Shown: piece by piece, positions 9,080 through 32,956 of the stretch | Position numbering within the stretch: position 1 is the stretch's first letter | How the letters are laid out: each line of letters begins with the position of its first letter | DNA from: an uncultured Clostridia bacterium | GTDB taxonomy: Bacteria > Bacillota > Clostridia > Christensenellales > Borkfalkiaceae | Reading direction: 5' to 3' | Assembly (NCBI GenBank): GCA_944343275.1 | Contig: CALVMH010000019.1 | Coordinates: 1-32,956 of the forward strand | Length of the DNA stretch: 32,956 nucleotides | Position numbers and translations under genes: made by a program | Notes under the pieces: generated by a model | Told to the model about the DNA's origin: nothing | Databases searched by the model: none | Seen by the model: only the letters and a program-made list of their open reading frames with translations

Positions 9080-10333
9080 CTATTCCCCGTTCCAGGTGCG
9101 GTTTTTTTGGAACCACTCAGTGTCTTTCAGGACGGTCGTATTGTTGGAACACCAGAGCTTCAGGCTCTTTTGCGTCTCCCCCTCGCCCGCGCCGTAATAG
9201 AACACGATGTCGCCGTTCATGGAGGTAACACCTTCCGAAGAATAATCTTCCCCGAGAATCCCGAGAGAGGTGACATAAATATTTTCGGTGTATTTCGCCA
9301 TGCGGTCGAGTGCTTCCTGCGTCGGGAACGTATTCAGATAGTTCTCCGGCTCTTCGTCCGTAGGCTTATCGGCATACTCATACGTCCCCGCACAACAGCA
9401 TATCGCAATGTTTTCAGGAGTGATCTTGCTTAAAAGAACATCATTCGAGGAAGTTGAAGAACCGTGATGCCCGCCCTTGAACAGAACACAGTGCGGAAGA
9501 TCCGGATTGTTCTCCGCCAAGGATTCCTCGCCCGATTTTTCAAGATCGCCCGTAAAGAGATAGTTATTCTCTTTTCCGCCCTCCAACTCCTGCGTCAGGA
9601 GCATACAAACGGAATTGTTGTTTTCGCCGCTGCTCGCCGCCTTGGAGTAATACTCCTGATAGAGGATATTCATGGAGATGGTCTGTGCTTCATCGAGATA
9701 GTATGTACTCTTGGCTCCGTTCTTTTCCTCCGTACACTCCAACGCGTCGTATACATTTGTGCCCTTTTCCCTGCAATACTCCACGGCGTCCACATAGTCG
9801 TTATAGATTCCGCTCGTGGTTTTGTGTTGAGAAAATTGAATGATCGTTCCGATCTCATACTGATAGAGGAACCCCGTGCGCGTATTCCCCTTTTCCTGTC
9901 CGACAAGCCCCGCAATGTGATCTTCATGCGCGTGCGTCGCAATCACATATTCGAGCACGCCGTCCGTGCAATACTTCGCAACATACTCCTGCATGATCTG
10001 CGTGGGCGCCGAGTTCTTTTTCGCCCCTGCGTCGATGAGCACTTCGGTGTTACCGACTTTGATGAGCGTGCAATCCCCCGTATTTACAACGCCCAACTCC
10101 AAAAAGTGGATGGACAGATCGGCGGAGACGATCTCGGAGAGTTCGCCGCTGCCGAGGGGCGTTCCGCCGGAAGAATTGGGATGATCCTGCTTTTTGTAGA
10201 CGAGAAAATACCAGCACGCCGCCCCGACGAGCACCAGCACGAGGAGGATCGCCACGGCAGTAAAAAATGCCTTGGGATGCTTTTTTGCCGCTGCGCGCGC
10301 GGCGCGTTCCGCCTTTGAACGCCTGCTTGCCAT
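9080..10333 (-). CDS. Membrane-anchored ComEC-like metallo-beta-lactamase-fold hydrolase
   Basis: The protein has a basic N-terminus, one membrane span (about 23-46) and an extracytoplasmic metallo-beta-lactamase-fold domain. The metal site is THAHEDHIAG (His134, His136, Asp138, His139), followed by FTGDLE and GGHHGSS, the pattern of the free-standing relatives of the ComEC/Rec2 C-terminal domain. NTGDCTLIKVGNTEVLIDAG near 84-103 is the equivalent of the ComEC DVGQGDA strand. ComEC itself has a multi-span channel, which is absent, so this is a stand-alone hydrolase, possibly acting on nucleic acids or phosphodiesters outside the membrane; the substrate is not known. The ATG has a doubled AGGAG upstream. 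It lies mid-operon, 17 nt after a 115-aa gene. Confidence 0.85.
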   Translation of the reverse strand: MASRRSKAERAARAAAKKHPKAFFTAVAILLVLVLVGAACWYFLVYKKQDHPNSSGGTPLGSGELSEIVSADLSIHFLELGVVNTGDCTLIKVGNTEVLIDAGAKKNSAPTQIMQEYVAKYCTDGVLEYVIATHAHEDHIAGLVGQEKGNTRTGFLYQYEIGTIIQFSQHKTTSGIYNDYVDAVEYCREKGTNVYDALECTEEKNGAKSTYYLDEAQTISMNILYQEYYSKAASSGENNNSVCMLLTQELEGGKENNYLFTGDLEKSGEESLAENNPDLPHCVLFKGGHHGSSTSSNDVLLSKITPENIAICCCAGTYEYADKPTDEEPENYLNTFPTQEALDRMAKYTENIYVTSLGILGEDYSSEGVTSMNGDIVFYYGAGEGETQKSLKLWCSNNTTVLKDTEWFQKNRTWNGE

Positions 10334-10350
10334 ATCCTTCTCCTTGCTCC

Positions 10351-10698
10351 TTATACGAGCCCGACCGCTGCGGCGATATTCACCACCGCTTCATCGATAT
10401 TGTGCAGAAATTTATTGATCGCCTTCTGCGCGGCGTCGTCGATGACGCCGTCCTGCGTGGTGCGCAGCAATTTTACGATCATGTCAAAATTTTCATAGAT
10501 GACGACGCATTCGGGATCGAGCGCCTGCAAGACCTTGTCGCCGCTTGCGCGCTGCACGGCATGCATCTGTTTGATCGCCTCGTTCATCTCGGTGAACAGC
10601 GCGACATTTCCCGATGAAAACAGTTCCGCCATCGTCGCGTTCAGCCGCACGAGCTGCGCCAAAAACTCCGCCGTCTCCTTGCTGACTTCGTTATCCAT
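10351..10698 (-). CDS. Hypothetical 115-aa helical protein
   Basis: I do not recognise this protein. It is predicted to be soluble and almost wholly helical, with no cysteine pair or signal peptide. The sequence is acidic overall, and the last part (KFLHNIDEAVVNIAAAVGLV) is amphipathic. Its ATG overlaps the stop codon of the upstream UDP-sugar pyrophosphorylase as TAATG, so it is translated by coupling, and the MBL-fold gene follows 17 nt later. The tight spacing on both sides supports a real gene. A four-helix or coiled-coil accessory protein is plausible, but only from composition. Confidence 0.75.
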   Translation of the reverse strand: MDNEVSKETAEFLAQLVRLNATMAELFSSGNVALFTEMNEAIKQMHAVQRASGDKVLQALDPECVVIYENFDMIVKLLRTTQDGVIDDAAQKAINKFLHNIDEAVVNIAAAVGLV

Positions 10699-11918
10699 TA
10701 CAGTTCCACTCCGTTTTTTGCGAGCAGGACGCGCGCGGTCTCCACGCTGTCCTGCCCCGTTCTGTTTTTGATGGGCGCAAATTCCTTCTCACGGTCGATT
10801 TCGAAGGGAAGACAGCTCCCCGCGCAACGCACCATATCGAGAATGAGCGTCTCGAACTTGCAGGCGTTCTCCGTCTGCGGCTCGACAAGCTCGCCCGCAT
10901 CGTTGAGGAAGGGCACCTTTTTCCGTGCGACATGGATGGGAAGGCTGGATTCCGCGACATTCCGCACCACATCGGCGCGGAAGAGATAGTTGAGCGTCAC
11001 GCCGCAGCCGTAGACGAGTTCACCTTGTTCATCGCGCAGGTTCGCCATCTCCTTGTCGAGCTCGTAATATTCGATAACGCTCGGCAGTCCGTCTTCCAGA
11101 CACAGCGCGCCGACGCGCTCTTCGGGATACGCCTTGCGCACAAATTTAGCGCCGCACGCCCTGCCGCTCAGAACGGTCGCCCCAAGGAACACGGGATCCG
11201 CCATGCGCTGCAAGACGTTATCCACGGAAAAGACGTTAAACCACTCCACACCGCGCGATCGCAGCGCCTCTGCAAGCCCCGCATGCACGAGGGAGGCATA
11301 CCAGCCGCCGTTCCCGTTGGGAGACAGCGCAAGGCTGTCCTTGGCGGACATCAGCAGTTTCCCGTCAAACCCGACGGCGGGCGCAAGCGACTGACGGAAA
11401 AAGTGCACTTCCCCTGCGGGATAGCCGAAATATGCGTGCTCTTCAAAGAACGCGCGGGTGGCGGCGTCGTTGCCCGCGCTCGTCATCACATACAGCGGAA
11501 CGTAAGCGCCGCACTGCCGCACGACATCCTGCAAGTTGCGGATGAGCTGTTCGAAAATATACAGCGGGCGGGTGATGCCGATGTCCACCGTCCCCTTCGG
11601 CGTTTCGCTCCCCAGCCGCGTGCCCTGCCCCCCCGCAAGCAGCACGAGGGCGAGCTTGCCCGCCCGAATCTCCCGTTTTCCGCAGGCAAAAAAATCCTCC
11701 CTGCGCGCCGCGATCTCCCGCAGGGAGAGCCCGTCAACGGGTTGGATATGCCCGCGCTCGCGCACGGGCTGCGCCTGCGCCTTTAAGAGCATCTCCCAAT
11801 CGATGCGGCGCACCTGTTCCGCAAGCCGCGCGCGTGCCTCCTCGTCAAGTTCGTTCCACCACCGGAGCACATGAAGCTGTGCGTGGTCTTTGAGTTCCTC
11901 AAAAATATCGTCGTACAT
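10698..11918 (-). CDS. UDP-sugar pyrophosphorylase (UTP--hexose-1-phosphate or GlcNAc-1-phosphate uridylyltransferase family)
   Basis: The enzyme family joins UTP and a sugar 1-phosphate to give UDP-sugar and pyrophosphate. The active-site loop LAGGQGTRLG is at 94-103, followed by SETPKG, which is the form found in the eukaryote-type UDPGP family (UGP/UAP) and not in bacterial GalU. Further family landmarks are YVMTSAGNDAATRAFF, FNVFSVDNVLQ and a late KFETLILDM segment. The substrate cannot be fixed from sequence; UDP-N-acetylglucosamine, UDP-glucose or UDP-galactose are all possible, and the neighbouring alpha-galactosidase makes galactose 1-phosphate a reasonable guess. It starts 30 nt after the GH127 stop with AAGGGG upstream and overlaps the next gene by TAATG. 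Confidence 0.85.
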   Translation of the reverse strand: MYDDIFEELKDHAQLHVLRWWNELDEEARARLAEQVRRIDWEMLLKAQAQPVRERGHIQPVDGLSLREIAARREDFFACGKREIRAGKLALVLLAGGQGTRLGSETPKGTVDIGITRPLYIFEQLIRNLQDVVRQCGAYVPLYVMTSAGNDAATRAFFEEHAYFGYPAGEVHFFRQSLAPAVGFDGKLLMSAKDSLALSPNGNGGWYASLVHAGLAEALRSRGVEWFNVFSVDNVLQRMADPVFLGATVLSGRACGAKFVRKAYPEERVGALCLEDGLPSVIEYYELDKEMANLRDEQGELVYGCGVTLNYLFRADVVRNVAESSLPIHVARKKVPFLNDAGELVEPQTENACKFETLILDMVRCAGSCLPFEIDREKEFAPIKNRTGQDSVETARVLLAKNGVEL

Positions 11919-11948: not shown

Positions 11949-13748
11949 TTATAAAAACCATACCTGCATGTCGTTTTCGCCCCGATTCGCCCACAGATAA
12001 TAGGGAATGAGGGTGAGTGTGAAGCTGCGTGTTTCGGGCGGGAGATAGGAATAGAGCGCGCCGTCCGCGACCGTGCGCCTTGCAGGGAGCCTGACGCAAA
12101 TCCCCGCCTGCGTGCGCTGCACTTGGGCATGTTCCAATGAGGGTATCTCCACGCCGAACAGCCCTTTCCCGTTGTCCGCTTCCTCCGCGCACAGCACGAA
12201 GGGACCGTATTCCACCGCCTTTTTTCCGCTGTCCGCGCGCACATGCGCGTTCGCATACACAAACCGCGGCTGCATGCCGAAGGTCACGTCCACGGCGGTC
12301 TCGCCGTCGACGTCAAAGAACAGATAGTCGTCTTTTGCCGCGGGCTGCACGTCCCGCCCGTTCACCTTGCAGGAGATGTCCGTCTGCCAGACGGGGATGC
12401 GCAGTGCGATCCGCCCCCTGCCCTTTGCCGTGAGCCGCACCTCGCCTGCATACGGCATCTGCGTCTTGAATGATAAGTCGATCCCGCAGGCGGATACGGA
12501 GGAGGAAATGAATTGATCGACAAAGAGAACGCCATCCTCTTCCCGGTAAATGCACCCGCCGATCTGCCCGAAAAAGCGCACGAGATTGGGCGGACAGCAG
12601 GAACAATCGAACACCTCCGGGCGCACCGAAAGCGGCTTGAAGGGCATCCCGGGAACGGTACGCGCATATGCCGCATACCGCGCATCCGCTTCCAGGGGGT
12701 TGACATAGAAAAACCCTATCCCGTCCGCGGATTCGCCCGCCAAAATGTTATTATAGAGCGCGCGTTCCAGCACCGCGTGATATGCCGCGCGGCTGCCCGT
12801 ATCCGCAAGCCGCCCGCAAAAGAGGGCGAGCGCAATGGCGGCGCACGTTTCGGCATACGCCTCGGCGTTGGGCAGATCGTAAGCAAGGGTGAACCGCTCG
12901 CCGTACCAGCCGGAACCGACGCCGCCCGTGAGATACAGTTTGCTGCGGACGATGTCGTCAAAGAGCGCGCGGCAAGCGGAGAGCAGTCCTGCGTCCCCCG
13001 TCAGCCGCCCGACATCCGCCATGGCGATATAGAGATAGAGCGCACGCACCGCATGCCCCACCGCCTCGCGCTGTTCGCGCACGGGCAGATGGGATTGGTC
13101 GTATGCCCTGTCCATGACGGGATAGACCTCCTCGGCACGCCTGCCGCGTTCATCGAGAAAGAACTTCGCAAGCGAAAGATACGTCTCTTTCCCCGTGTGT
13201 TCATACAGGCGGACGAGGGCGAGTTCGATCTCCGGATGCCCGCAGGTGACAAATCCCGCATCGCGCCGCACAAAAAAGCGCTCGCGGATGTAGTCCGCAT
13301 ATCGCTCCATGGCAGGCAAAAGCTCCCTGTTCACGCCGCACTTGTCGAGCGCGACCGCCGCCTCGATGAGGTGCCCCGCGCAATAGAGTTCGTGCTCGGT
13401 GCGTTCCGTAAAAATTTTATCGGGCTTATAGACCTGATAAAAACTGTTGAAATACCCGCACGGGAGCTGGTTTTTTACGATGGTGCGCACCGTTTCGCCG
13501 ATGATCGCCTGCACTTCTTCGTCGGGAAACTCCGCCTGCAGATATGCTGCGGCTTCCAGCCATTTGGCGACGTCCGAATCGAAAAAGATATGGGAAGGCG
13601 GATCGCTCCTTTCGCAGCGGAGCGCCGCAAAACGTCCCGTCTCCTCAAAGCGCCTGTAAATGTTTTTCAGCGAGACGCGCGCGTTCTTTTCGCGCAGCCG
13701 CTGCCAGAACCCGTCTGTGAGCGTTACGCGCTCGTATCCGATATGCAT
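11949..13748 (-). CDS. GH127-family beta-L-arabinofuranosidase
   Basis: This family removes beta-L-arabinofuranose from plant arabino-oligosaccharides and hydroxyproline-linked arabinan, using a zinc-held cysteine nucleophile. The 599-aa protein has the (alpha/alpha)6 barrel features: PNAEAYAETCAA with Glu300, the Glu328 of HAVLERALYN, and the DCSCCPPN cluster (Cys382, Cys384, Cys385), in which Cys384 matches the nucleophile of the Bifidobacterium enzyme. The C-terminal part is beta-rich (LRIPVWQ, VEYGPFVLCAE). No signal peptide, so it should act on imported sugars. The ATG at 13748 has GGGGGG three bases upstream and its own promoter. It leads the operon that runs to nnr. Arabinose released here would feed araA, araB and araD just upstream. 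Confidence 0.93.
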   Translation of the reverse strand: MHIGYERVTLTDGFWQRLREKNARVSLKNIYRRFEETGRFAALRCERSDPPSHIFFDSDVAKWLEAAAYLQAEFPDEEVQAIIGETVRTIVKNQLPCGYFNSFYQVYKPDKIFTERTEHELYCAGHLIEAAVALDKCGVNRELLPAMERYADYIRERFFVRRDAGFVTCGHPEIELALVRLYEHTGKETYLSLAKFFLDERGRRAEEVYPVMDRAYDQSHLPVREQREAVGHAVRALYLYIAMADVGRLTGDAGLLSACRALFDDIVRSKLYLTGGVGSGWYGERFTLAYDLPNAEAYAETCAAIALALFCGRLADTGSRAAYHAVLERALYNNILAGESADGIGFFYVNPLEADARYAAYARTVPGMPFKPLSVRPEVFDCSCCPPNLVRFFGQIGGCIYREEDGVLFVDQFISSSVSACGIDLSFKTQMPYAGEVRLTAKGRGRIALRIPVWQTDISCKVNGRDVQPAAKDDYLFFDVDGETAVDVTFGMQPRFVYANAHVRADSGKKAVEYGPFVLCAEEADNGKGLFGVEIPSLEHAQVQRTQAGICVRLPARRTVADGALYSYLPPETRSFTLTLIPYYLWANRGENDMQVWFL

Positions 13749-13783
13749 GTTCCCCCCTCGGCGCCCGACGGCACCTTTCTATT

Positions 13784-13812
13784 ATTATATAGAATACGGA
13801 CGGGAATGTCAA
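13784..13812 (-). promoter_or_regulatory. Promoter of the GH127 operon, -35 inside an inverted repeat
   Basis: On the minus strand TTGACA (13807-13812) and TATAAT (13784-13789) are 17 nt apart, with a predicted start near 13777 and a leader of about 28 nt. The -35 box lies in the loop of GGACGGG-10 nt-CCCGTCC, an inverted repeat that could be a repressor site or the terminator of the upstream alpha-galactosidase gene; it has no following U-tract, which favours an operator. Confidence 0.7.
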
Positions 13813-13827
13813 TCCCCGTCCCGAAAT

Positions 13828-15906
13828 TTATTGCGCCTTTTGCAGAAGGAATGCGCCCGCGCGGAACAATGTGCCGCCGTCCGGTTCTTCCTCTTTGCAG
13901 CCGATGTGAAGGACACCGTCCTCCATGCGGTAGGGAAGGTCGCAGAAGGCGCGCACGAGCCGCCAGCCTTCGGCGGGAACGCACACCTCCTCGCGCGAAT
14001 TGAGCGCATGGACGAGCACGAGACGCTCGCTTCCGAGCTGCTTTTCAAAAATCTGCCTGCCGCAGGGAGCGCGGTAGTATTCGACGTTGCAGTCGATGTT
14101 CACGATGTCCCCCTTCGCCACGATGGCGCGCACGGCGCGGTAGAAGTTAAGCCCCTCGCAGATGAGCCGCATCTTGTCGGGCGGTATGGCAAGCACGTCG
14201 CCCGACAGACATATCCTGCCCATCATGGCAGCGCACAGCGAATAGACGGTACGCGCGGGCGTATCCTTTTCGCGCAGCACCGCCCATATCTGCAACTGCC
14301 TTGCGGGAACCACGCGCGAAACATTGGCGGCAACGAGCGGAAGTTCGGGACATTCGTGCGCATCCGAAAAGGAACACATTGAGACCATGTTCATACGCCC
14401 CGGCTCGATGCGGCAGCCGCCCGAAGCGCAGTTTTCCATGACGATGCCGGGCACCGCCGTCCTGATCTTTTTCAGCCACGCAAGGCTCTCCTCCGCGACC
14501 TGCCGCCCGCCTTCGCCGAGGCTCTCCGCCCCGTCCGCGCCGATGCCGTAGGTATCGTTATAGTCAATCTTGATATACCCGAACCTGTTCTTCACGAGAA
14601 AATCGATCATGCGTTCGGAGATGTACGCTTTGACTTCCTCCTTGCGGAGGTCAAAGAAACGGCGGTTTTTGTTGGTGATGGTATAACCGTCGCGCGTCAG
14701 AAAGAGGTCTTCCTGGTAAAATATCTCCGAATCGCGCCCCGCGTTTTCAAACTCGAACCAGATGCCGGGCACCATACCCTCGGCGCGGATGGCGTCAGTG
14801 ACCGCCTTCACGCCGTGCGGAAAGAGCGCGGCGCTCTCCTTCCAATCGCCGACGGCGTTGCACCAGCCCTTGCCGTCCGGCTTGTACCAGCCGCAGTCGA
14901 TGACGAAATAGCCGATGCCGAAGGGCTTGACCGCCTGCAAAACGGCGCGGATATTCTCCTCCGACGGCACGCCCCACGTCGTGCAGTATTCATTGAACAC
15001 AACGGGCATCTCCCGCTCGCTTTCGGGAACTTCGAGGCGGGCGTCCTGCTCGTGCACGAGGGCGTTGCACGCTGCAAGCACATCCCCCCTGCCAACATAT
15101 AAGAACGCCTTGTTTGTCTCAAAAACCGAACCTGCGGGGATATTTTTGCGCCAATGAGCAAATGCAAAGTCCCCCGCGCCGCAGGTAAGCGAACAACTCT
15201 CCTGCTCCTGATACAGTTCCATCTGCCAGGAGAAGGGCGCCTCAGCCTGCACCGCCCACACGATGCCCGCCCGTTCGTCCTCGATGGCGGCGAAGGGATA
15301 GTAGCCGCGGTTGGACATACCGCCGACCTCACCCCACATTTCCACCTTGACGCCGTAGCGCGCCCAGCTCATGTCCATGCCGAGCTGCGAAAAGGTATCC
15401 GACCGCATGCGGCACTCGCGGCTCCACGCACTCGTCATGCGATGAAGCGTCATGCCTGCCGTATTGCCGCCCGCGCCCGCGATCCCGCTCAGCGAAAGGC
15501 TTGCGAGCATTTCCAGCGTGCGCATGCCGCCCGTCCCGTTTTCATAGCGCACCCATACGGTGAATACGCCCGCCCTTGCGCAGTATTCGAGAACATGCGT
15601 GTAAAAGTTGCCGCGCCCGTCCGTAAGACGGGTGACGACGCTCTCGCCGCGGCGCGTCTGCTCCGTGACATGCAGAAGCGTCCCCGCACGGTTGCGCATG
15701 GTCACCCCCTGCGTATAGTCGATGAGCCCTTCGCCCCCCGTGAAGGCGACCTGCACAAGACTGTCGCAGTGCAGGTCGCGCGTGTCGACGGGAACGTCGG
15801 CGGGGTACATCGCAAGTCCGACCATCGTCTTGCCCTCGTGTCCCTCAACGGCGCTTTCGACATAGTAAACGGCAATGTCGCCGAACAGATATTTCCGGAA
15901 AAACAT
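13828..15906 (-). CDS. GH36-family alpha-galactosidase
   Basis: The 692-aa protein has the GH36 order: an N-terminal beta-sandwich (about 1-290), a TIM barrel with YFVIDCGWY (333-341), FEFENAG (384-390) and YIKIDYND (444-451, Asp448 the expected nucleophile), then SFSDAHE (512-518, Asp515 the expected acid/base), and a C-terminal beta domain. It should release terminal alpha-galactose from raffinose-type sugars or galactomannan. Some GH36 members prefer other galactosides, so the substrate is inferred. It has no signal peptide and probably acts in the cytoplasm. It follows araA in the arabinose operon after a GC hairpin. The ATG at 15906 is the first possible start (an in-frame stop lies three codons upstream) but there is no ribosome binding site. 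Confidence 0.92.
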   Translation of the reverse strand: MFFRKYLFGDIAVYYVESAVEGHEGKTMVGLAMYPADVPVDTRDLHCDSLVQVAFTGGEGLIDYTQGVTMRNRAGTLLHVTEQTRRGESVVTRLTDGRGNFYTHVLEYCARAGVFTVWVRYENGTGGMRTLEMLASLSLSGIAGAGGNTAGMTLHRMTSAWSRECRMRSDTFSQLGMDMSWARYGVKVEMWGEVGGMSNRGYYPFAAIEDERAGIVWAVQAEAPFSWQMELYQEQESCSLTCGAGDFAFAHWRKNIPAGSVFETNKAFLYVGRGDVLAACNALVHEQDARLEVPESEREMPVVFNEYCTTWGVPSEENIRAVLQAVKPFGIGYFVIDCGWYKPDGKGWCNAVGDWKESAALFPHGVKAVTDAIRAEGMVPGIWFEFENAGRDSEIFYQEDLFLTRDGYTITNKNRRFFDLRKEEVKAYISERMIDFLVKNRFGYIKIDYNDTYGIGADGAESLGEGGRQVAEESLAWLKKIRTAVPGIVMENCASGGCRIEPGRMNMVSMCSFSDAHECPELPLVAANVSRVVPARQLQIWAVLREKDTPARTVYSLCAAMMGRICLSGDVLAIPPDKMRLICEGLNFYRAVRAIVAKGDIVNIDCNVEYYRAPCGRQIFEKQLGSERLVLVHALNSREEVCVPAEGWRLVRAFCDLPYRMEDGVLHIGCKEEEPDGGTLFRAGAFLLQKAQ

Positions 15907-28954: not shown

Positions 28955-29042
28955 GGAAGGCTGGCAGAGCGGTCGAATGCGGCGGTCTTGAAAACCGTTG
29001 AGGTGCGAGCCTCCGGGGGTTCGAATCCCTCGCCTTCCGCCA
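28955..29042 (+). tRNA. tRNA-Ser(UGA)
   Basis: An 88-nt class II tRNA with acceptor arms GGAAGGC (28955-28961) and GCCTTCC (29032-29038), discriminator G, and an encoded CCA. The anticodon loop CTTGAAA (28987-28993) has anticodon TGA, and the long variable arm follows as in serine tRNAs. The T-loop is GGTTCGAATCC. The tRNA has its own promoter and a terminator. Its 3' end is next to a sharp drop in GC content. Confidence 0.98.
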
Positions 29043-29076
29043 AAGCCCTGCATTTTTCAGGGCTTTTTATTTTTTT
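29042..29076 (+). terminator. tRNA-Ser terminator
   Basis: AAAGCCCTG, a 7-nt loop and CAGGGCTTT make a 9-bp stem followed by a T-rich run. It starts inside the CCA end of the tRNA. The stop codon of the convergent 247-aa gene is located within the loop and stem, so this element also marks the junction with the AT-rich segment. Confidence 0.9.
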
Positions 29077-29800
29077 GAATTTCAATTAGTCCACTCGCAA
29101 CAAAACTATGTTCAAAAAGAAAAGATGATATGTTTTTTGCTATGATTTCATTCTTTCTGCGTTCACCAATAGATCTCCTAGAAATATAAGACTGATATAG
29201 ATTATCCGTATTTCCCGTCATCGAAAACAATGCAAAATCTAACTTACTTGATTGTTCAAAAATATCCAAAAATTCTTTTGTTTGTAATAAATCCAAACAA
29301 CACATTTTATAATTATTATTCAAATAAAGACTGCCCAAAGGGCTAGCGTCTTCAATTAAGAATCCCATATAAATATTTTTGAAATCTTTTTTTAACTCTT
29401 TCTGCATTTCAGTTTTATAATCATCGATTTTGTCATAATGCGATATAAACTGTGCTAGAAAATTTTCGACGTAGTAGATACCTTTCTTTTTTACATCTTC
29501 ATCTAAAACTGCAAAATCTCCATCTTTAACAAGTTTCTTCTTAAATTCCTGTTCACTTTTAGCTGCGACTTTATGTTGTTCGCTTCCTTTTTTCGTGGTT
29601 CTCGTATTATCGAACTGAAAATGCTCAAGTAAAAGCATATCGCTCTCAATGACTGCATAGGCATCAGGTCGCCTTGGAGCTTCTTTAAGTTGAGAAAAGA
29701 ATTGATTGTACTTATGAATCGATGGACTATCTTCTCCTAAGCAATTAACACCTTGCGGACAAATTGTCATACAATAAATAGTTCTTTCAAAATCTGTCAT
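29057..29800 (-). CDS. Unknown 247-aa protein at the AT-rich segment edge
   Basis: I do not recognise this protein. It is soluble, lysine- and acid-rich, with no membrane span or signal peptide. The first third has several cysteines (CMTICPQGVNCLG near 10-22) and VIESDMLLLEHFQFD followed by KKGSEQ (about 50-75), which might be a nuclease-like or nucleotide-binding core, but I cannot place a known motif. The middle is helical and charged. The gene is AT-rich, unlike the GC-rich genes left of the tRNA. It has its own promoter 28 nt upstream and AAGGTG before the ATG. Its stop codon is inside the tRNA terminator, which suggests the end of the gene was set where foreign DNA joined the core chromosome. 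Confidence 0.8.
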   Translation of the reverse strand: MTDFERTIYCMTICPQGVNCLGEDSPSIHKYNQFFSQLKEAPRRPDAYAVIESDMLLLEHFQFDNTRTTKKGSEQHKVAAKSEQEFKKKLVKDGDFAVLDEDVKKKGIYYVENFLAQFISHYDKIDDYKTEMQKELKKDFKNIYMGFLIEDASPLGSLYLNNNYKMCCLDLLQTKEFLDIFEQSSKLDFALFSMTGNTDNLYQSYISRRSIGERRKNEIIAKNISSFLFEHSFVASGLIEIQKNKKP

Positions 29801-29827
29801 ATTCTCACCTTAGATTTGATTTTATAA

Positions 29828-29856
29828 ATTATACCATATAATAGTTTTTTTAACAA
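29828..29856 (-). promoter_or_regulatory. Promoter of the 247-aa unknown gene
   Basis: On the minus strand TTGTTA (29851-29856), 17 nt ending TGG and TATAAT (29828-29833, extended -10) predict a start near 29821, with a leader of about 20 nt carrying the AAGGTG ribosome binding site. Confidence 0.7.
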
Positions 29857-30133
29857 GGTTTACATCTCCATATCCTTTGACTTTCGCGGTGCTTTTGCAG
29901 GCGTTCTTGAAAGTCGAGATATTCAAAGTATTCGTCAAGCGTTTCCAAACCGAGCCGCGACATTTCTTCTTTCGCTTTTTTGAATACAGATAAATCGTCG
30001 GCATTATCGGGCGCGGTATCTTGCGAAACTTCCACTCAATGGGTTCGTCGTCCTGATCCAACACCTCAAAAGTCTGCAAATGATTTTCGTTTGCAGACTT
30101 TTCTATTTCCGCCGTCGAAAATATTTTCTGCAT
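29850..30133 (-). pseudogene. Small gene broken by a frameshift
   Basis: The sequence reads as one small acidic protein split between two frames. From ATG 30133 the first frame gives MQKIFSTAEIEKSANENHL and on to DQDDEPIEWKF. Near 30030 the protein-like signal moves to another frame, giving DTAPDNADDLSVFKKAKEE, SRLGLETLDEYFEYLDFQE and then a stop at 29850. The two parts fit one antitoxin- or accessory-like protein of about 95 aa after a one-base loss. The first frame, continued, becomes Lys/Arg/Cys-rich and unlike a protein. There is no strong ribosome binding site. A sequencing error, decay or programmed frameshifting are all possible; I cannot name the family. It is 26 nt downstream of the methyltransferase fusion on the same strand. 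Confidence 0.5.
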
Positions 30134-30159: not shown

Positions 30160-32574
30160 TTAATATAGAAACTTAAATTTCACCTTTGCATACTCTAAAC
30201 GCTTTTTGGTTACGGTTCGGCAAATATCGCTTTCACGGTTGTTGACGAGAATAAAGCGACGTTTCCCACCGTCTTCATCATTGAGTGATTTGACGGCTTG
30301 CCCCAGCGTGCCGCTTCCTGCGAAGAAATCCATTACGATGGAATTTTTATCGGTCGTCGCACGAAGCAGTTCTTTGATAAGTTTTACGGGTTTCGGCGTT
30401 GAAAAATATTCTCGCTTGCCGAAGATATCCGCAATTTCATCTTTGGCGGAAGAGGTGGTTCCGAAACAATCGAAGTCGTCAGGGAACGGAACTTCCATTT
30501 CTTTCCATACGCCATTGTCCAAATACGGCTGACGTATATTTTTCAGAATACTTGCAGAACGCTTTCTGCAAACGATGATATATTCATAATCCGTTTGAAT
30601 TTTATGCGGATTGAGCACCACGCGGTTTTGATCAAACAACGGATTTTTCTTTTTCCATCGATGAAGGGAAACCATTTCTGATCCGAATATTTTTTTACAT
30701 AGTAACATTAAATTAGCTACTTCGCCTTCATCAATATTGATGACCATAAAGCCTTTTTCGGAAAGAAGAGGATATGCTTTTCGCATCCTTTCAGACATAT
30801 ATCCGAGATAGCCGCTCTCAAATCCTGCATCCTGATAGCCGATATAATCGATATTGGAGTTATACGGCGGATCGATGAGAATCGCGTCGATCATTCCAAG
30901 GTAATGATTTTGCATTGCCGCAAGAGTATAGATATTATCCGATTCAATCAAATAATTCTCCGGAGTTTTTCGAACGGTAATCTTTGGACTCGCGTTTGAA
31001 AAGGCATTGTTATCAATGATCGTATCCTTGCCGACCGAAATCTCATTCAGGCTACAACAATATGCAAAAGCCCATTCGCCGATGTATGTTATAAGATCCG
31101 AACAATGTACTTTTTGCAGCGCTGCGCAATTCGTAAAGCATGATTTGTTGATAACATTGACATTATGAAGATGAATTACTGTCATTTTATTACAGCCGGA
31201 AAAAGCGCCGCGCTCCAACGTGATGACCGAATCCGGTAAATGTACTTCTCCTATTGCTTTCCATGCAGGACAGCAAATCAACTTTGAGCAATCCTTATTA
31301 AATAATATATCGTCTTTTACCTCAAAAAGCGGTGAGTGGCTTTCAAATCGGATGTTTGAACAACCTACAAACGGATTATATCCGATATCTTCAAGCGTTT
31401 TCGGCAATACGATCGTTTGTATTCCTGTGCAGTTCCAGAAGGAATTGCGGTTGATCGTTTTTACCCCTTCAGGAATAACAAGCCGTGCTGTTTTGATCTT
31501 ATTCAAAACGCCTACGACGGCTGTATTATAACGGTTGTAGATCACGTCGTCTTTCACATTGTATGCGGAAGATTTACAGATCAATTCCAATTTGGAGCAA
31601 CCGGAAAAAGGATTGTTCTCCATTTTGAGAAGAGACGACGGGAGCGTGATCCTTTCAAATCTGTCACAAAGATAAAATGCGTGCTTCCCTATGATTTTGA
31701 CCCCTTCGGGAATCGTCAATTCCGCATCGATTCCTATAATAGAACAGTAAATGATGCTGTCTTTTTCCCGATTATACAAAATACCGTTTTCATAAACAAA
31801 AAACGGGGACTGATTTTTCAATTTAAGACGAGGACATCCTGCAAACGGATTATTCCCCATGAAACGGACATTCTTCGGGATGTTGATCGTTTGTAGATTA
31901 CGGCAATTATAAAATGTATCCCCGCCTAAATTTACGACAGTATCGGGAATAACTACTTCTTCGATGAATTGATTGTCCCAAAAGGCCGATGATTCGATTT
32001 CTTCCGTTCCGTCCGGAATTACAACGACCTTCTCTTTGCCGGTATATTTCATCAAACGATTTTCGCAATAAATAAAATCCGGTGATGAAAACTGATTGCG
32101 CTTACGAACGGAGAACCGGAATCGATCATATTCTTCAAACGCGCCGTAATCATAGGTTTTTCCGTCGAAACGTATTTTGGACTGATACTCCAAAACACCG
32201 CTGACCAATCTTGATTTGTACGAAATCTCTCTGTCCGATGCGGGGTAATCTATTACATCATCCCACACATGACAATAAACGCTAAAATTACGGAATTGTA
32301 CCCGCGTTCCTGCAACACGAATATCCTTTTGCGTGTAATCAAGTAAAAACAGCCTGTCAAGAAGTTCCAAAACGACAAAACTTTCATGCGTATTCATAGA
32401 CAATTTCGTCTTGCCGATAAATGCCGTTTGCCTTTCTGCATCGATCTCCACGCATGTACCGTTTTTATATTCTTTACGGTATAAATCGGGCGCGTACTCA
32501 TAAAACCGCATCGCCCAATACAGAGCCGTATATTTCATGTTTTTGCTGAGGCGCAAATCACTTAATGACGTCAT
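30160..32574 (-). CDS. Fusion of BspA-type leucine-rich repeats with a type III Mod-like N6-adenine DNA methyltransferase
   Basis: The 804-aa protein has three parts. Residues 1-180 are of unknown fold. Residues about 183-535 are BspA-type leucine-rich repeats (LRR_5 class), with repeated units of the pattern IPEGVK-I-AF-C-I-LP and a larger ~75-residue period carrying NPF-GC and D-(I/V)-(L/I)-YN. Residues about 538-804 are a beta-class DNA methyltransferase: ESDNIYTL, the catalytic IDPPYNSNIDY (567-577), STPKPVKLIKELL (725-737) and the SAM-binding DFFAGSGT (749-756) in that order, as in type III Mod subunits. The usual Mod N-terminal region and large target-recognition insert are not seen. 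The chosen start ATG overlaps the upstream stop as ATGA. No restriction subunit is in the window. Such a repeat-methyltransferase fusion is not one I know. Confidence 0.88.
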   Translation of the reverse strand: MTSLSDLRLSKNMKYTALYWAMRFYEYAPDLYRKEYKNGTCVEIDAERQTAFIGKTKLSMNTHESFVVLELLDRLFLLDYTQKDIRVAGTRVQFRNFSVYCHVWDDVIDYPASDREISYKSRLVSGVLEYQSKIRFDGKTYDYGAFEEYDRFRFSVRKRNQFSSPDFIYCENRLMKYTGKEKVVVIPDGTEEIESSAFWDNQFIEEVVIPDTVVNLGGDTFYNCRNLQTINIPKNVRFMGNNPFAGCPRLKLKNQSPFFVYENGILYNREKDSIIYCSIIGIDAELTIPEGVKIIGKHAFYLCDRFERITLPSSLLKMENNPFSGCSKLELICKSSAYNVKDDVIYNRYNTAVVGVLNKIKTARLVIPEGVKTINRNSFWNCTGIQTIVLPKTLEDIGYNPFVGCSNIRFESHSPLFEVKDDILFNKDCSKLICCPAWKAIGEVHLPDSVITLERGAFSGCNKMTVIHLHNVNVINKSCFTNCAALQKVHCSDLITYIGEWAFAYCCSLNEISVGKDTIIDNNAFSNASPKITVRKTPENYLIESDNIYTLAAMQNHYLGMIDAILIDPPYNSNIDYIGYQDAGFESGYLGYMSERMRKAYPLLSEKGFMVINIDEGEVANLMLLCKKIFGSEMVSLHRWKKKNPLFDQNRVVLNPHKIQTDYEYIIVCRKRSASILKNIRQPYLDNGVWKEMEVPFPDDFDCFGTTSSAKDEIADIFGKREYFSTPKPVKLIKELLRATTDKNSIVMDFFAGSGTLGQAVKSLNDEDGGKRRFILVNNRESDICRTVTKKRLEYAKVKFKFLY

Positions 32575-32956
32575 ACCGTTTCCCATACTTTTAATATTAT
32601 ACCGACAACTTCATCGGGTGTTAATTTGCTTGTATCTATAACGACATGCGGCAAAGCAAATTTTTCGCAGAAGAAAATCATCCGTTCGCTGACCGTTTTT
32701 GTTTTAACCGCTTTTTGAATATCGCGGTCATTCGGATCGCGCGATTTCAATCGCTCTATCACCGTTTGCTCATTCGCAGTCAAAATGACGGTCAAACGGG
32801 GCTTCCCGAGCTTTTTAAGCAGAAGTTCATATACGTCTTCGTTCGTTTCTGTTCCGCTCCATGCGTAATTAGATGCGAAATGGCGATCGGTGATAATGTT
32901 TTGATCCTTGTATATTTCATAGAGATAAAGACTTCCGAGCCCATAAAAAAGCGCCG
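32571..32956 (-). CDS. P-loop nucleotide-kinase-like protein, C-terminal part, cut by window edge
   Basis: The visible 127 residues are the C-terminal end of a small kinase-fold protein. IITDRHFASNYAWSG is the DR-H/Y-xxS motif of thymidylate-kinase and deoxynucleoside-kinase folds, followed by the core strand PRLTVILTAN, a lid-like RLKSRDPNDRD and the final strand HVVIDTSKL. The P-loop would be beyond the window edge, so the family assignment is tentative; a nucleotide or nucleoside kinase, or a kinase-fold ATPase, all fit. It overlaps the start of the LRR-methyltransferase gene by four bases and so is in the same operon. Its composition matches the AT-rich segment. Confidence 0.65.
   Translation of the reverse strand, partial: ALFYGLGSLYLYEIYKDQNIITDRHFASNYAWSGTETNEDVYELLLKKLGKPRLTVILTANEQTVIERLKSRDPNDRDIQKAVKTKTVSERMIFFCEKFALPHVVIDTSKLTPDEVVGIILKVWETV

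Follow-up and report, generated by a model that had tools for sequence, protein, structure and literature searches.

The gene described here and its operon have their closest known counterparts in the Mod methyltransferases of type III restriction-modification systems, in fused restriction enzymes of a type I/IIG-like build, in surface proteins with BspA-type leucine-rich repeats (LRR), in class III ribonucleotide reductases and in the prokaryotic viperins. We know of no system in which ribonucleotide reduction is combined with an LRR protein and an enzyme that modifies bases; the combination was met in no library, title or abstract opening that was searched, a coverage from which subscription papers and most preprints are missing, so that absence is not proof, and the combination of genes appears to be new. 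The DNA analysed is a stretch of 32,956 nucleotides from an uncultured Clostridia bacterium (contig CALVMH010000019.1; “the window”), which is the whole of one contig, C19, of genome G000. A gene at 30160..32574 on its reverse strand fuses a degenerate nuclease domain, an LRR array and a methyltransferase, and belongs to an operon with a class III ribonucleotide reductase and a nucleotide kinase. The best reading, with function deduced from sequence, is of a restriction-enzyme-derived modification system without cleavage that would be tied to its own deoxynucleotide supply.

Domain structure of the fused protein

A single open frame (30160-32586, reverse strand) encodes 808 aa comprising an N-terminal domain, BspA-type LRR and a compact, Mod-like β-class methyltransferase. 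An earlier reading made from the letters alone (the sequence-only reading) had described an LRR region running continuously into a methyltransferase, and this frame is real: Pfam reports LRR_5 at 8e-51 for repeats at approximately residues 181-533 (353 aa; 30988..32046, reverse strand, seen also in the structural model) and N6_N4_Mtase at 1.2e-35. The limits of the gene were drawn from the list of open reading frames (ORFs), Pfam, an alignment of homologues and an AlphaFold model. The longest ORF reaches 32586; the start codon is more probably at 32574 (Met5), since its ATG and the stop codon of the kinase gene upstream, which ends at 32571, overlap as ATGA, and several homologues align from Met5. 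The structure prediction proposed in the sequence-only reading gave a coherent AlphaFold2 model (mean pLDDT 91.3, pTM 0.85, with 46 sequences in the alignment); in the PDB its structural neighbors are found among BspA-type LRR proteins and, at the C-terminal end, among Mod subunits and small β-class DNA methyltransferases.

The N-terminal ~170 residues form a separate, restriction-type domain that goes beyond what had been described before (approximately residues 17-180; 32047..32538, reverse strand). Pfam reported no match for residues 1-180; a profile search (profile A3), however, matched two proteins of ~1250 aa at E-values of 1.1e-8 and 8.0e-8 per genome, both of which (L143 and L144 in our numbering of loci) are fusions of HSDR_N_2, N6_Mtase and Methylase_S, and thus type I/IIG-like restriction enzymes. 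A third match (genome G612, 4.8e-4) is weak and lies at the LRR edge of the profile. Aligned by hhalign with an HsdR_N-type PD-(D/E)XK domain, the N-terminal domain gave a probability of 98.3 over 127 columns (E 1.2e-14, a single comparison). The catalytic [ED]xK is kept in 0/35 family rows, and a helix glutamate (E74) and a tryptophan past the active site (W108) are kept in all 35. Judged by these alignments, the domain is homologous to HsdR-type PD-(D/E)XK nuclease domains and predicted to be catalytically dead. Foldseek found nothing for it at E <= 0.001 in the PDB or BFVD; the type IIB enzyme BsaXI stands at PDB rank 12 with a TM score of 0.35, too weak to count alone. The fused protein may be read as a restriction enzyme without cleavage, in which a dead nuclease is followed by LRR at the possible place of the recognition part and by a terminal methyltransferase.

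The β-class N6/N4 amino-methyltransferase domain occupies residues 540-808 (30163..30969, reverse strand), and as the sequence-only reading had it, the catalytic DPPY (residues 572-575; 30862..30873) stands ahead of the FAGSGT that binds S-adenosylmethionine (SAM; residues 755-760; 30307..30324), both on the reverse strand. A lack of methyltransferase activity and of conserved SAM-binding residues had been named as grounds for abandoning the assignment; DPPY and F(A/G)GSGT are intact in 38/38 methyltransferases of the family. Between the two motif blocks there are 31 residues here against ~142 in EcoP15I Mod, so that the insertion of >100 aa forming a target-recognition domain (TRD) is absent. 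The earlier statement that the domain is too compact for a TRD thus holds in comparison with type III Mod. It does not follow that DNA is not read, as the domain (~268 residues) is similar in size to the free-standing DNA methyltransferases M1.HpyAVI, MboIIA and M.BceJIV, and small size alone does not exclude DNA reading.

The repeats evolve slowly. In five pairs of sequences the LRR dN/dS is 0.05-0.13 (in the pair that includes the window's gene synonymous change in the LRR is saturated), and mean pairwise identity across the fused set is 58.7% for the LRR, close to the methyltransferase (60.0%) and NrdD (63.2%), with 57.8% for the kinase and 39.9% for the N-terminal domain. Conserved LRR positions include W203, K301, H302, R380, W384, R459 and W505. 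Such slow change argues against a diversifying arms-race sensor, and the suggestion that the repeats sense phage proteins is accordingly not supported; strong purifying selection would better fit the binding of an invariant partner or target.

The operon and its relatives

A pattern scan with one genome per species gave 79 loci. The family set comprises 62 loci: 61 chosen by identity and range (L031-L091) and one phage record (L018). Among L092-L109, the contig-end locus L095 is a fragment of the family and the rest look like generic LRR loci. The general gene order over the 62 loci is NrdG, NrdD, in some a phosphoesterase, a dTMP-kinase-like enzyme, and the LRR protein with its partner. At the thresholds used NrdD was found in 57/62, the kinase in 58/62 and NrdG in 51/62 loci; each of the five loci that lack NrdD is cut off by a contig end no more than ~1 kb upstream of the LRR gene. 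CGHVG and RVKHxHK motifs mark a small protein outside any Pfam family (for example L024 6775-7203), which is present in 27/62 loci, mostly directly upstream of NrdG.

The partner of the LRR protein varies. LRR and methyltransferase are fused in 27/62 loci (25 by translation table 11; L058 and L059 by table 4), and in 15/62 they are separate neighboring genes, mostly overlapping; the possibility raised before, that the two halves occur only separately, does not apply, and the search for the same architecture recovered the fusion together with the same partner genes in many genomes. In 13/62 loci a GT4 glycosyltransferase carrying LRR takes the partner's place (Sel1 repeats were present in both members scanned), and 11 of these 13 have another LRR protein after it. 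The remaining seven are unassigned, six being cut by contig ends (L060, L076, L077, L082, L083, L090) and one, L055, having no full methyltransferase; in this Mycoplasmataceae locus the LRR frame (9986-11623) closes after ~540 residues by table 4. Large LRR proteins also follow the glycosyltransferase at L024 (16081-18111) and L023 (14225-16630), with a weak AAA_14 ATPase match, below cut-off, before the repeats. A programmed frameshift or phase variation at the LRR-methyltransferase joint was considered and rejected as a general rule: the 15 split loci show all three frame relations, with spacings from -44 to +52 bp.

In a tree of LRR proteins (54 rows including the window's), the fused form makes up one clade of 26 rows with support of 100/100 and the glycosyltransferase form another of 13 rows with 99/96. 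An assembly artefact is ruled out by the 27 fused loci and the single fused clade. The locus of a methanogenic archaeon (L078, 287-6125) encodes a separate methyltransferase and a separate glycosyltransferase-like gene, is sister to the glycosyltransferase clade, and is plausibly an intermediate between the two partner types; together with the partner exchange this suggests that the two partners have substrates of a similar kind. Loci were found in Bacillota, Mycoplasmatota, Spirochaetota, Bacteroidota, Fibrobacterota, Patescibacteria, Promethearchaeota, Thermoplasmatota, other archaea and one phage, and the intermingling of phyla on the LRR-protein tree indicates wide horizontal transfer. Going by the names of the organisms and the oxygen-sensitive reductase, the hosts would mostly be anaerobes.

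The reductase, its activase NrdG and the kinase keep their active sites. In NrdD, the class III ribonucleotide reductase (~564 aa), the thiyl cysteine, the second cysteine, the formate-site asparagine, the glycyl glycine and the four zinc cysteines are each conserved in 50/50 aligned sequences; the one member tested against TIGR02487 scored 355.8 bits (cut-off 326.35), and Pfam reported no ATP cone in the three members scanned. CxxxCxxC is kept in 49/49 NrdG sequences, one of which scored 93.6 bits against TIGR02491, below the cut-off of 126.1. The kinase P-loop was found in 52/55 by a first pattern, with GMDGIGKST in the remaining three. The phosphoesterase has GNHD/E in 29/29 (two further, poorly chosen patterns gave 17/29 and 26/29). 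Among the matches listed from 151 genomes of the window's order, NrdD proteins of >50% identity occur only in the genomes with the LRR operon (G145, G146, G124, G041 and G000) and in G069, where the contig breaks off within NrdD, behind HTH-NrdG. The next-best matches in these 151 genomes are 36-40% identical, mostly in frames of >700 aa, with one partial match at 42%, and the window's genome carries its own NrdD elsewhere. With close matches so confined and a host enzyme at hand, the operon NrdD looks like a dedicated reductase. A tree made by a quick method has one branch separating operon NrdD proteins from six other NrdD rows (SH-aLRT 90), a split that is weakly supported because two of the six outside rows have absurdly long branches. 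Given this conserved company, the earlier frame of an orphan or type III-like methyltransferase, or new modification or defence protein, was in its first part too narrow, since the protein belongs to an operon of reductase, kinase, LRR and methyltransferase genes and carries a dead nuclease domain.

The tRNA-Ser island and the wider setting

The window ends inside the kinase gene (32571..32954, reverse strand; Thymidylate_kin 1.6e-8), which encodes a dTMP-kinase-like deoxynucleoside monophosphate kinase, has its 5' end cut by the contig end, and overlaps by its stop the start of the LRR-methyltransferase gene; the kinase-fold gene of the sequence-only reading is thereby borne out. At the left end of another contig of the same genome, C22, lie in the fitting orientation the first part of NrdD (85% identity to the operon NrdD of G145), NrdG (74%) and HTH (71%), and we infer that C19 and C22 are neighbors in the genome, with C22 carrying the upstream half of the operon. 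Further on, C22 encodes an AbiE-type toxin-antitoxin pair, made up of an AbiEii toxin (PF08843, 1.4e-38) and the product of a DUF6088 gene that weakly matches AbiEi. In two genomes AbiEii with an AbiEi-like partner lies upstream of the operon HTH regulator: on C22 (L112, 2273-3885, reverse strand) and beside the operon start in G069 (L145, 1-1473, forward strand).

The 3' part (28987-29043) of a tRNA-Ser (tga) gene recognised by ARAGORN (28955..29042, forward strand) is the left copy of a direct repeat; the 57-bp repeat recurs on C22 (4218-4274) in direct orientation, with 3 mismatches and exact stretches of 30 and 17 bp. The repeats bound an AT-rich island of roughly 9-10 kb (an estimate), and the accessory segment described earlier is clearly visible in the GC content, 0.34-0.42 against 0.50-0.65 in the rest of the window. 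With the AbiE pair and the tRNA-Ser direct repeats, the setting looks like that of defence genes or mobile DNA, in line with the earlier expectation. No integrase gene was recognised in the island parts on C19 and C22, nor was any restriction subunit or Res gene seen there, in agreement with the earlier observation; 10 protein matches with a ResIII domain, untyped, lie elsewhere in the genome. Of 41 loci scanned, four others (L052, L066, L070, L073) have a tRNA gene at most 300 bp away from the operon. The island also holds a 247-aa gene (29057..29800, reverse strand), whose membership of the operon is not implied and which had no match in phages or plasmids and nothing above cut-off in Pfam or NCBIfam. 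A 103-aa ORF that is no part of the operon (29822..30133, reverse strand) weakly resembles an XkdN-like phage tail-assembly chaperone (PF08890, E 0.12, below cut-off); it is possibly a decayed phage gene, as a second overlapping frame appears to continue it.

The distribution of the operon is patchy. It is present in 7/297 genomes of the window's order, its own included, and 391 genomes from the class and 299 from the phylum yielded no further copies. Places covering at least 80% of the window's protein numbered 1/50,697 in phages and 0/72,556 in plasmids. One phage, NatCom_17901 (L018, PV036423.1), carries the core operon; serine recombinase genes lie on both sides of it (190-1989, 12568-14145, 14138-15418), so that within this phage the operon may be a mobile insertion of its own. 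A phage nucleotide-metabolism cassette in general is not favored, the IMG/VR pattern scans having returned no relative. Five loci contain serine recombinase genes, which are complete in L018, L031 and L035 and fragmentary in L038 and L053. Neighbor clustering, in which most clusters are unannotated, revealed no conserved association of a replication or transfer gene with the operon, and no Res helicase-nuclease or other cleaving subunit recurs beside it; HsdR genes lie near L039 and L067. Two clusters of recurrent genes found a few kb upstream of the operon, c5 (17 loci, for example L066 2351-3160) and c7 (13 loci, DUF4238, for example L045 2208-3650), are possibly a second module that travels with it. 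Among the features that speak for conflict with mobile DNA, a WYL regulator cluster is present in five loci (L039 by PADLOC; the L024/L079 member above the Pfam cut-off).

No system model of PADLOC 2023 covers the operon; there are single-protein matches only, to methyltransferase models, VakA/PDC-M51B, HTH and radical-SAM, and NrdD and the phosphoesterase had no PADLOC match at E <= 0.01. Enrichment of defence genes was assessed with PADLOC at E <= 1e-15 for flanking ORFs of at least 250 aa, sampling 105 of 241, of which 101 were run (four running off locus ends were dropped); as a control, 102 of 155 ORFs from L092-L109 were sampled and 98 run, with four from the family fragment L095 dropped. 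Counted as members per model for the best 25 models, and not as distinct proteins, the family flanks gave up to 3 each for PDC-S01, pVip and mad3, 2 each for REase_I and AriA and 1 for several others, and the control flanks gave 3 for mad3 and 1 each for mad6, mad2, PD-T4-6 and MkoA.

Interpretation and comparison with known systems

Tentatively, we read the gene as the recognition-and-modification subunit of a mobile operon of anaerobes in which base modification would be coupled to the making of deoxynucleotides, with conflict against phages or other mobile elements as its most likely use. The dead nuclease and the LRR would stand in for the part of a restriction enzyme that recognises the target, and would bind either a conserved partner or a nucleic-acid target; the methyltransferase, or the glycosyltransferase, would mark adenine or cytosine amino groups or another site, on DNA made from the operon's own deoxynucleoside triphosphates (dNTPs) or on bound invader DNA. 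The phosphoesterase and kinase would tune the deoxynucleotide pool, and nearby HTH, WYL or CARF-like regulators would hold the operon in check until needed. A bolder version, which we regard as doubtful, makes of it an unnamed, domain-crossing immune system of anaerobes: a restriction enzyme minus scissors and specificity domain, plus an LRR platform, wired to a private reductase and kinase, with exchangeable effectors marking new deoxynucleotides or DNA. If it is immune, dNTP synthesis would be linked to modification-based defence, LRR would stand in place of a target-recognition domain, and effectors, methyl for glycosyl, would be exchanged on a fixed platform across bacteria and archaea.

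Several points weigh against a conflict system of this kind. Enrichment of defence genes around the operon is modest compared with the control, a slowly evolving LRR is untypical of immune sensors, and the IMG/VR pattern scans (with the window's protein and query A1) found no relative, the one phage copy notwithstanding. The calcineurin-like phosphoesterase is present in 30/62 loci and the HTH_3 regulator in 11/62, and the CARF-like regulators beside L087 and L089 match below the Pfam cut-off. The NrdD tree shows some reshuffling between partner types (4 changes of the fused label, 3 of the glycosyltransferase label), DNA as the substrate is an assumption from the methyltransferase family, and anti-phage activity, DNA methylation and contacts between the proteins are likewise hypothetical.

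Alternatively, the methyltransferase or glycosyltransferase might modify free deoxynucleotides, so that, by analogy with viperins, phage DNA synthesis is poisoned or marked by a dNTP bearing a methyl or glycosyl group, with kinase and phosphoesterase processing the modified nucleotide and the LRR and N-terminal domain serving as a lid or docking platform on the reductase. The missing TRD insertion, the nucleotide enzymes in the same operon, the match of the kinase to VakA (which we take to be the viperin-associated kinase) and the exchange of methyltransferase for glycosyltransferase would all suit this; yet in size the domain resembles small DNA methyltransferases, the PD-(D/E)XK-derived domain points to nucleic acid, and no β-class DNA methyltransferase is known to us to act on free dNTPs, so that we consider this account unlikely. 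Nor do we find it probable that the operon is a cassette serving a mobile element, whose replication or transfer the reductase and kinase would feed while the LRR-methyltransferase, as an orphan methylase, shields it from host restriction. Such a role would explain the copy in phage NatCom_17901, the recombinase genes in five loci and the island between direct repeats, and a phage reductase without an ATP cone is known from T4, whose type of chain (1h78) is matched by the operon NrdD. However, no replication or transfer gene was conserved in the largely unannotated neighbor clusters, plasmids and phages yielded almost nothing and IMG/VR no relative, AbiE is carried as cargo, and most copies lie in contigs of cellular genomes.

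A purely physiological operon supplying dNTPs under anaerobic conditions for repair or stress, with the LRR as scaffold, the methyltransferase as regulator and no part in conflict, would agree with the intact active sites of the metabolic enzymes, the strong purifying selection on the LRR-methyltransferase and the HTH regulator. We hold it to be quite improbable in view of the host's own NrdD, the patchy occurrence within the order and the lack of further copies in the class and phylum genomes, the spread over bacteria and archaea and the mobile-type island location. That the gene encodes an orphan type III-like DNA methyltransferase of the ordinary kind, to which LRR became fused by accident, or is an assembly artefact, is scarcely credible: the closest solved relatives of the C-terminal domain are indeed Mod proteins, but the fusion recurs in 27 loci, forms one fully supported clade of 26 rows, and conservation of the LRR protein extends to loci with a separate or replaced methyltransferase.

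Compared with the systems named at the outset, the recognition-and-modification subunit proposed here and its operon share some features with each and depart from all of them. With BspA-type LRR surface proteins (4gt6, 4fs7, 4h09) the fused protein has the LRR_5 repeats in common, but it begins with a nuclease-like domain and is operonic with enzymes expected in the cytoplasm, and inspection by eye revealed no signal peptide or wall anchor in the fused protein. The prokaryotic viperins (pVip/VakA) likewise pair a radical-SAM enzyme with a VakA-like nucleotide kinase within an operon; here, however, the radical-SAM protein is an NrdG-type activase (TIGR02491 at 1.1e-26 against 1.3e-6 for viperin), and a viperin-type operon is ruled out by this NrdG-like gene. 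The reductase passes the TIGR02487 cut-off in the member tested and keeps the active site of class III NrdD/NrdG enzymes, whereas it is a short form, without a Pfam ATP cone in three members, whose close matches among those listed from 151 genomes are confined to LRR-linked loci. Type III Mod proteins (EcoP15I, Mbo45V, 6k0w) provide the best sequence matches and share the methyltransferase fold with DPPY before FAGSGT, in contrast to which this protein has no TRD insertion, no Res gene in its operon or in the C19 and C22 island parts, and instead an LRR array, a dead nuclease and a reductase operon. Finally, the type I/IIG-like fusions (HSDR_N_2, N6_Mtase and Methylase_S, ~1250 aa) place a homologous PD-(D/E)XK-type N-terminal domain beside recognition and methyltransferase parts in the same manner, whereas in the fused protein the ExK has been lost, LRR take the place of the specificity domain, and a β-class N6_N4_Mtase that of N6_Mtase.

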